Assembly: GCA_027625915.1 (NCBI GenBank)
Contig: JANTQA010000023.1
Location: forward strand, 8,122,001-8,186,000
Length of the DNA: 64,000 nucleotides
Reading direction: 5' to 3'
Origin: Anaeramoeba flamelloides
Taxonomy: Eukaryota > Metamonada > Anaeramoebidae
The notes under the pieces were generated by a model, which worked only from the letters and a program-made list of their open reading frames with translations, ran no database searches and was not told where the DNA came from. The translations under genes were made by a program, and so were the position numbers. Below are positions 20,945 to 21,890 of the stretch, in pieces. Each line of letters opens with the position of its first letter. Positions within the stretch are counted from its first letter, which is position 1.

Positions 20945-21890
20945 TTTTTTTTTTTCTGTTTGGTTTTCCAGAATTCAAAAGAATTGATTAAATTCTTTGA
21001 TTTTACACTATTCTTTTGAATTATGGAAAATAGAACAAGACTTCTAACTTAGAGAATCTGGAACTCATTCTGCGTATATTTTTATGTTTCTTTTTTTAGT
21101 TTGATTAAATCTTCTGACCTATAATTGATTTTATTATTTATTTGTTGGTTAAAATTTTTTTATTTTTCTAAATTAGGTAGAGATAAATTTCTTTATTTCT
21201 TTTTGAATTTAACATTCTTTTTATTTACTGAAACTTTAATATTTTCAATTTTCAATTCCTTTTTGTTATCAAGAATTGGAGTATTTCTGTTTATTTTAGA
21301 GAATTGTGGAATACCAATTATTAATCACAGATTGTCAATTTTTCTTGATAATCAATAATCTTTCTTTCTGGTTTTTGCCCCTCCTGCGAATTCTTGGGAT
21401 GTGTCGTCAAGTGCCTTGCTTTTTATGAGGTTTTAAGTTTTATTGGGAAAGTTTTCTAGGTTTTTTATTGATTTTTCCTATTTTATTTGTTAAGTATTCG
21501 AGGTTTTTTGGGTTTATTTCATTTTATATTTGGAAAATCTATTGATTTTCGTTAGGTTTTTTTTACTTTTTGAAATGAACAAAAAATTTTAATAAATTTA
21601 CGGTTTAGTTCAAAAAGTAAAAAAAAAATCCAGAACACTTTACAAATAAAATAGAAAACCTAAAAAAAAACCTAGAAAACTTCACCAATAAAATAAAAAA
21701 ACTCAATAAAAAGGTAACGAAAATGTATTGATTTTTCAAATAAACAGAAAAATCAAGAAAAGTTAAACGTACATTTTTTTTAATTTGAGAAATCAAAAAA
21801 AAAAATAACTGTGTTTTTCAAGAATTCAGAGGAATTTAGTAAAATCAATGATTTTACTTAATTCTTTCAAATTCTGGAAAACCTAATGAT
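20945..21890. repeat. Nested-hairpin array (locus 2) with neighbouring module B
   Basis: Two hairpin-rich stretches lie at 20960-21040 and 21390-21890. The first is one stem-loop whose arm starts TTTTCCAGAATTCAAAAGAA. The second stacks several stems: an arm with TTTTTTTTACTTTTTGAAAT against its complement ATTTCAAAAAGT-like sequence (21553-21633, here as GTTCAAAAAGTAAAAAA), CTAGGTTTTTT / AAAAAACCTAG arms, and a final EcoRI-like GAATTC stem at 21815-21886. The sequence GTCGTCAAGTGCC at 21402 matches a junction motif seen in other arrays. Module B follows on - at 22290-21940. Confidence 0.8.

Follow-up and report, generated by a model that had tools for sequence, protein, structure and literature searches.

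Analysis of a 64,000-nt stretch of the Anaeramoeba flamelloides genome (contig JANTQA010000023.1, positions 8,122,001 to 8,186,000; hereafter the window, whose own numbering is used throughout) suggests that its dispersed hairpin arrays, including those of region 20945-21890, represent a mobile but non-autonomous hairpin cassette whose hosts are retrotransposons, into which it is inserted site-specifically. We assign this reading a probability of about 0.45. The initial annotation treated 20945-21890 as one array and overlooked that the surrounding sequence is a retrotransposon, partly coding. The region is instead made of two arrays belonging to two retroelement copies: that of an antisense copy of a long interspersed nuclear element (LINE), LINE-alpha, and that of a polyA-tailed element nested in this copy. 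The window has a GC content of 0.229. The genome searched is a 254-Mb eukaryotic assembly of 76 contigs, in which the 946-nt target gave 7,335 first-look candidates, 40 of which were scored. L-numbers (L002, L043 and so on) designate sampled genomic loci, and window21 and window34 are copies in the window.

Each array consists of one to several palindromes of three recurring types, 70-90 nt long: A (GAATTC type, 67-79 nt), B/C (ACTTTTTGAAAT and AAATTAAAAG types, about 70 nt) and D (a AAAACCTC/TCAATAGATTTTCG stem with AAAACCTC arms, about 80-90 nt), with nested D-around-B forms also occurring. The stem types that the initial annotation described at six places of the window do occur at all six, where hairpins A, B/C and D were located, and its GC-richer junction words correspond to 10-nt repeats such as GGCACTTGACG/GGCACTCTACG. 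The two ends of an array differ: the short one is TGTCGTTAGG, and the long one, CCTAGGCACTTGACGACACTCCA, contains 10-nt repeats in varying number; the long-end sequence is ACGACACTCCA or close variants. Folding of 11 complete arrays, to which 12 nt of flanking sequence were added on either side, placed them 9.5 to 21.7 standard deviations below 15 approximate dinucleotide shuffles per array (z −9.5 to −21.7), a stability so far beyond that of the shuffles that the arrays are not due to chance. Neither a plain tandem repeat, a CRISPR, a tRNA-like element nor a known RNA family fits them, and the earlier view that they are not a simple terminal-inverted-repeat transposon, tandem repeat or CRISPR was upheld. 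Searches of eight loci against known RNA families returned 22 matches with E values of 1 or less, all of them below the gathering score, and ARAGORN reported no tRNA gene in eight loci. Two word resemblances were dropped: that of the CACTCCA end to a tRNA-like CCA tail, for which ARAGORN was negative, and that of GTTAGG...CCTAAC to an integron attC site. Compensatory substitutions, suggested earlier as a sign of a selected fold, did not appear in the hairpin A stem, with no double change in the 26 pairs of a pattern-selected set of 15 distinct sequences, and selection on the fold of this stem was rejected.

The site studied most closely is S1 of LINE-alpha, which lies between Trp-Lys codons and a Gln codon. 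Empty copies read TTGGAAR/GTN/CAAAAAT and occupied copies TTGGAAR/TGTCGTTAGG ... CACTCCA/CAAAAAT, with the array in place of one GTN codon. Both flanks could be placed in 49 of 62 copies, yielding 24 occupied sites, 24 empty sites and one relic; these counts are not frequencies, because the copies were chosen around S1, as top matches there and from S1 listings. Empty sites were exactly GTN in 23 of 24 cases, the remaining one having four bases. The S1 arrays of the 24 occupied copies range from 90 to 736 nt and are all oriented from short end to long end. Fifteen of these 24 complete arrays start exactly with TGTCGTTAGG, and their last bases are CCA (18), CCG (2), CCT (1) or other (3). Short terminal inverted repeats (TGTCGT...ACGACA) are present in most S1 arrays, the long end being asymmetric, and the 10-nt repeats preceding this end vary from 0 to several per copy (for example in L043, L039, L055, L003 and L012). 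No target duplication was found when the 24 complete arrays were compared with the 24 empty sites; at this best-studied site, the duplications around whole arrays that had been proposed as a test of a mobile element are therefore missing, and a GTN codon is replaced instead. Exact-word counts extend the two states to the whole genome: 65 occupied left junctions (control 0), 38 empty sites (control 0) and 133 matches to the right junction GACACTCCRCAAAA (control 1).

At least four LINE-alpha subfamilies hold both occupied and empty copies with an identical junction, and the flanks on both sides of an array are of the copy's own subfamily type. Copy L024 of another element, LINE-beta, has the same S1 junction. 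Because occupied and empty sites coexist in many close copies, the sequence itself shows where the boundaries lie, which way the state changes and whether lineages exchange arrays. In the commonest form the LINE open reading frame (ORF) stops in the first codons of the cassette (AAR TGT CGT TAG), so that an occupied copy probably depends on intact copies. One copy, L078, contains at S1 a 14-nt relic, ACCTATACACCCCA, which corresponds to the cassette long end only and may be a deletion or an excision footprint.

Array clusters were surveyed in 264 kb comprising the window, 100 kb adjoining it and ten 10-kb stretches elsewhere. Eighteen of 22 clusters lie in or beside polyA-tailed retrotransposons (LINEs): LINE coding sequence is no more than 300 bp away from 12 of them (random value 0.117) and no more than 600 bp away from 13 (random value 0.161), and five more were placed by eye, four by a flank resembling the LINE-beta 3′ end (L014:1407, L018:2228, L020:1089, L028:2131) and the window cluster at 35715 as the tail of a LINE-alpha copy that is interrupted. 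At about one array per 12 kb, the density is a lower bound, because the cluster search missed the window arrays at 3020 and 49387. The proposal of a mobile foldback element is thus borne out in its nested palindromes, shared outer ends and signs of mobility, while a free-standing character is contradicted by the 18 clusters associated with retrotransposons.

Alignment beside hairpin A revealed long flanks common to array-bearing and array-free copies, which have polyA at their 3′ end and encode the C-terminal part of a LINE. Locus L079 contains a 596-amino-acid ORF with a reverse transcriptase domain (RVT_1, E=3e-26) that covers the LINE-alpha 3′ part only, and Exo_endo_phos was detected in more distant relatives, above the cut-off in L082 (E=3e-7) and below it in L081 (E=0.0016). 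The host element is a non-long-terminal-repeat (non-LTR) retrotransposon, that is a LINE, probably of the APE type. Two array-bearing elements, in L005 and at window 21298-22012, have both polyA and target duplications (13 and 15 nt, respectively) flanking them, which indicates that arrays were copied along with their hosts in at least these two cases. In the window element an A-run precedes the right copy of the duplication, and its 3′ part matches L083 (blastn E=7e-13) and, by eye, L085, L086 and L089. The antisense LINE-alpha copy of the window ends in its own array, its polyA lying within a few bases of hairpin A. Two other observations concern these hosts: at L079:383-2632 an open LINE-alpha copy seems to be inserted into the hairpin array of a LINE-beta copy, with hairpin pieces on both sides, and at L081:4453-4983 (minus strand) an ORF with a CxxC...CxxC motif, perhaps ORF1, lies directly upstream of a 1,189-amino-acid LINE ORF.

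The arrays are not limited to S1. They occupy fixed positions in three retroelement contexts, namely S1 of LINE-alpha, S1, S2 and S3 of LINE-beta, and S4 of a polyA-tailed element. The short end followed by the start of hairpin A (TGTCGTTAGGTTTTCC) occurs 346 times genome-wide (control 0), including 91 times after GGARR. Eight places where it follows another sequence were read and correspond to one diverged LINE-alpha S1, two S3 sites, four S4 sites and one junction inside an array; at both S3 loci and all four S4 loci the short end adjoins the site exactly. The four S4 loci share one common upstream sequence and represent a third retroelement family, which includes the window element at 21298-22012. 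Arrays at S2, at the LINE-beta 3′ end, run in the opposite direction relative to those at LINE-alpha S1. L024 shows an empty S2, and the exact S2 word has 12 matches genome-wide (control 0).

The history of S1 was examined on a left-flank tree of 60 rows (34 occupied, 25 empty, one unlabelled), whose bootstrap is not fully settled; L037, L077, window21 and window34 were labelled occupied from their junctions, L078 was left unlabelled, and L012 and L014 were too short to be included. The tree needs at least 12 state changes, 6 of them forced by well-supported branches (17 under automatic labels). On the assumption that arrays cannot be lost, supported branches require 13 or more gains, with the empty GTN form, in which the reading frame stays open, taken as ancestral and L078 counted as occupied. 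Immediately before the junction, the base is that of the copy's own subclade in subfamily III (AAA) and in subfamily IV, where L054 has AAA as do L073 and L076, and L055 has AAG as do L071, L072, L074 and L075.

Divergence of hairpin A and flanks was compared in 55 pairs of 11 copies grouped by subfamily, the extreme pair being taken from 120 pairs of 16 copies. All 10 pairs that combine subfamily I with subfamily III show less divergence in hairpin A than in either flank (means of 0.038 versus 0.137 on the left and 0.173 on the right), and the most extreme pair, L043-L047, differs by 1/75 in hairpin A versus 63/473 and 23/117 in the flanks. Between II and III, hairpin A is below both flanks in 6 of 8 pairs (0.114 versus 0.125 and 0.202). 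Within subfamilies, hairpin A and flanks diverge alike (17 pairs; 0.043, 0.045 and 0.035). Since the contrast between hairpin and flanks is clear only for I-III, transfer of the hairpin between lineages is indicated by these sequence comparisons for that pair of subfamilies only. Constraint on hairpin A is an unlikely cause of the I-III closeness because L044 and L045, both within II, differ by 0.093 and the A stem lacks compensatory changes.

Under the reading of the arrays as a site-specifically inserted cassette, an activity supplied in trans would carry out the insertion, and the cassette would then travel in the host RNA and be copied with its host by target-primed reverse transcription. 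Modules may multiply, invert and nest when the polymerase slips or folds back on palindromes, as the variable 10-nt repeats, inverted loops and nesting suggest. Several observations weigh against this reading. State is clustered on the tree, with none of 500 label shuffles as low as the observed number of changes (mean 19.2), so that close copies share state. In L037, L045 and L002 the base that precedes the junction differs from that of near relatives, and is thus not a perfect marker. Between subfamilies I and II, hairpin A is below both flanks in only 5 of 20 pairs (means of 0.106 versus 0.126 and 0.094), a pattern equally compatible with vertical descent. In 14 of 39 other scored loci the A-C form matches the query over its full length at 84-96% identity, which indicates that much of the inheritance is vertical. 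The LINE-alpha copy of the window (21031-22908, polyA after hairpin A) showed no duplication of at least 10 nt when compared with 22430-23200 (0.8 kb), and four of the 22 clusters (in L019, L022 and two in L028) have no retroelement placement. No obvious target motif is common to S1, S3 and S4, and the cassette has no transposase, endonuclease or recombinase linked to it, none having been searched for. It may also be that arrays reached each retroelement family a single time, with recombination spreading them afterwards. The broader proposition, of a new hyperparasitic class of palindromic cassettes that encode no protein, have fixed ends, enter exact coding sites of retrotransposons through a site-specific reaction on DNA or RNA and grow by hairpin modules, one LINE codon serving as a repeatedly used docking site, is in our view doubtful.

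Copy-choice during reverse transcription, which dispenses with a separate mobile element, is unlikely. The LINE reverse transcriptase would jump from an empty RNA to an array RNA and back at the hairpin base and so spread arrays between lineages, with foldback and slippage shuffling the modules. This is consistent with the copying of arrays together with their hosts (the two elements with polyA and duplications, and one LINE-alpha copy with polyA after the hairpin), with the homologous flanks, with I-II hairpins that are no closer than their flanks, as expected for mostly vertical descent, and with 10-nt repeats and inverted loops that resemble slippage and foldback. However, two switches at the junctions would be needed each time, yet the adjacent base tracks the recipient subclade in III and IV, and copy-choice alone leaves unexplained why one end structure occurs at S1, S3 and S4 among unrelated-looking flanks. 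Gene conversion between genomic LINE copies, by which break repair with very short tracts would copy an old insertion into, or out of, other copies, appears improbable. The high copy number (6,436 first-look candidates) and conserved flanks would favor it, and yeast mitochondrial GC42 clusters are reported to exchange by homologous recombination with co-converted flanks (PMC4478555). Against it, no donor base is seen beside the left junction in subfamilies III and IV, and the IIIb copy L067 retains its own third base to the right.

Two further explanations are much less probable. The very stable folds could mean that the LINE contains, in these hairpins, a structured RNA component such as a recognition or bypass element, kept by selection. 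Stem-loops are known at the 3′ ends of some LINEs, which is compatible with such a role. We regard it as the least probable of the readings considered, given that the A stem has no compensatory changes and that array content differs widely between close relatives. Hardly more credible is that the arrays are introner-like introns, or inserts removed from RNA or DNA, and that empty copies are retrocopies of the processed form. A closing stem is present at the array base, the array takes exactly one codon's place, so that its removal would leave the frame open, and Amoebophrya has introners whose splice sites are odd and which carry inverted repeats; introners resemble the arrays in the inverted repeats at their ends and in their insertion in coding sequence (PMC7789003). 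Splicing fails, however, because the GTC, GTA or GTG of empty copies cannot derive from the occupied sequence by removal. No GT-AG boundaries were found at S1, the actual ones being AAR/TGTCG and CCA/CAA. Introners, which are removed by splicing and carry direct repeats (PMC7789003), fit neither these boundaries nor the empty form.

Mobile hairpins that carry no genes occur in mitochondria and in bacteria. The bacterial REP/REPIN modules, which are mobilised in trans by RAYT transposases, are like the present arrays in being palindromic and clustered. The cassette itself is neither a LINE nor a short interspersed nuclear element (SINE), since at S1 it has neither its own tail nor its own duplication. 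It shares terminal inverted repeats with Foldback or miniature inverted-repeat transposable element (MITE) DNA transposons but differs from them by the missing target-site duplication at S1. The nearest working parallels, by analogy, would be yeast mitochondrial GC clusters (GC42) and mitochondrial DNA (mtDNA) hairpin elements. GC42 clusters are short palindromic mobile units that merge and shuffle, occur in stand-alone and merged forms at one site and are exchanged between lineages (PMC4478555), and the arrays likewise consist of short palindromic repeats, which at shared sites become merged and shuffled. In contrast to the GC42 clusters, the arrays are AT-rich, lie inside retrotransposons on megabase contigs (2-24 Mb) rather than in mtDNA, and replace a codon at S1 without duplication; their location excludes them from both mitochondrial kinds, and the flanking repeats also exclude them from GC42. 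Repetitive and double hairpin elements of mtDNA are also hairpin-forming repeats without coding capacity, and a form without flanking duplications, for which an RNA route was suggested, is reported from Allomyces; these elements differ in occupying intergenic regions and some genes of mtDNA rather than fixed sites in a retrotransposon ORF (PMC2800124). Among the entries listed by searches of open PMC papers, none described LINE-hosted hairpin arrays, which is weak evidence of absence. The cassettes look like parasites of a genomic parasite; if this relation is true, a hairpin cassette ends the LINE reading frame at a fixed codon.

Table. Location of hairpins, arrays and host elements in the window.
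Feature	Position	Strand	Remarks
PolyA tail of LINE-alpha copy	20936-20955	-	20-nt poly-T on + strand, shortly after hairpin A
Hairpin A at S1, antisense LINE-alpha copy	20964-21030	-	67-nt palindrome; LINE-alpha joined beyond about 21031
LINE-alpha coding part next to S1	21062-21297	-	blastn/tblastn to L079, L080
15-nt target duplication, left copy	21283-21297	+	ATTTCTGTTTATTTT
PolyA-tailed retroelement, third family, site S4	21298-22012	+	Nested in LINE-alpha; own array
Second array	21392-21888 (limits approximate)	+	Long end GGGATGTGTCGTCAAGTGCC, nested D/B stems, hairpin A, short end CCTAATGATA
15-nt target duplication, right copy	22013-22027	+	
Upstream continuation of interrupted LINE-alpha copy	22013-22908	-	blastn at 22013-22522, 22747-22908
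Degraded array	2927-3225	+	Two B/C-type hairpins; after LINE-like remnant ~2700-2926
LINE-alpha copy ending at S1	34000-35056	+	tblastn E=7e-38
S1 array of the preceding copy	35057-35978 (limits approximate)	+	Nested D stems, C hairpin
Array at S3 of LINE-beta copy	47932-48534	+	LINE-beta coding follows, 48535-48748
Array at S2, 3′ end of LINE-beta ORF	49388-49586	+	Followed by LINE 3′ end and polyA
LINE-alpha coding upstream of S1	58651-59128	+	
Complete S1 array	59129-59677	+	549 nt; replaces GTN codon
LINE-alpha C-terminal coding and 3′ end	59678-60110	+	
Hairpins A	20964-21030, 21815-21881, 48179-48245, 48453-48531, 49428-49502, 59137-59207		
Hairpins B/C	3027-3095, 3149-3218, 21557-21626, 35894-35962, 47932-48009, 49509-49575, 59316-59386, 59440-59509		
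Hairpins D	48287-48376, 59213-59292		Nested forms at 35684-35882

Three of the window arrays listed in the table call for comment. The LINE-like remnant preceding the degraded array was recognised by eye only and was not found by tblastn. In the S1 array starting at 35057, hairpin A is split by an insert of ~0.5 kb (about 35085-35600). The 5′ end of the LINE-beta copy at 47932-48748 lies within its array.

A second short inverted-repeat family, with ends CAGTCAGTTTCACTTTTAAGGCAC..., was observed at 22 places in the loci examined, 7 of which are a single word. Its sites include window 22579-22718, 33828-33942 and 40823-40939, L013:8616-8782 and L076:565-685; the latter two are inside LINE copies, and the family looks like an ordinary MITE. 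Host genes recognised with Pfam in the window, all on the minus strand, encode a BEACH-WD40 protein (6744-11894), a short-chain dehydrogenase fragment (24645-25241), a three-SH3 protein (27410-30448) and a MyTH4-RhoGAP protein (56004-58238).
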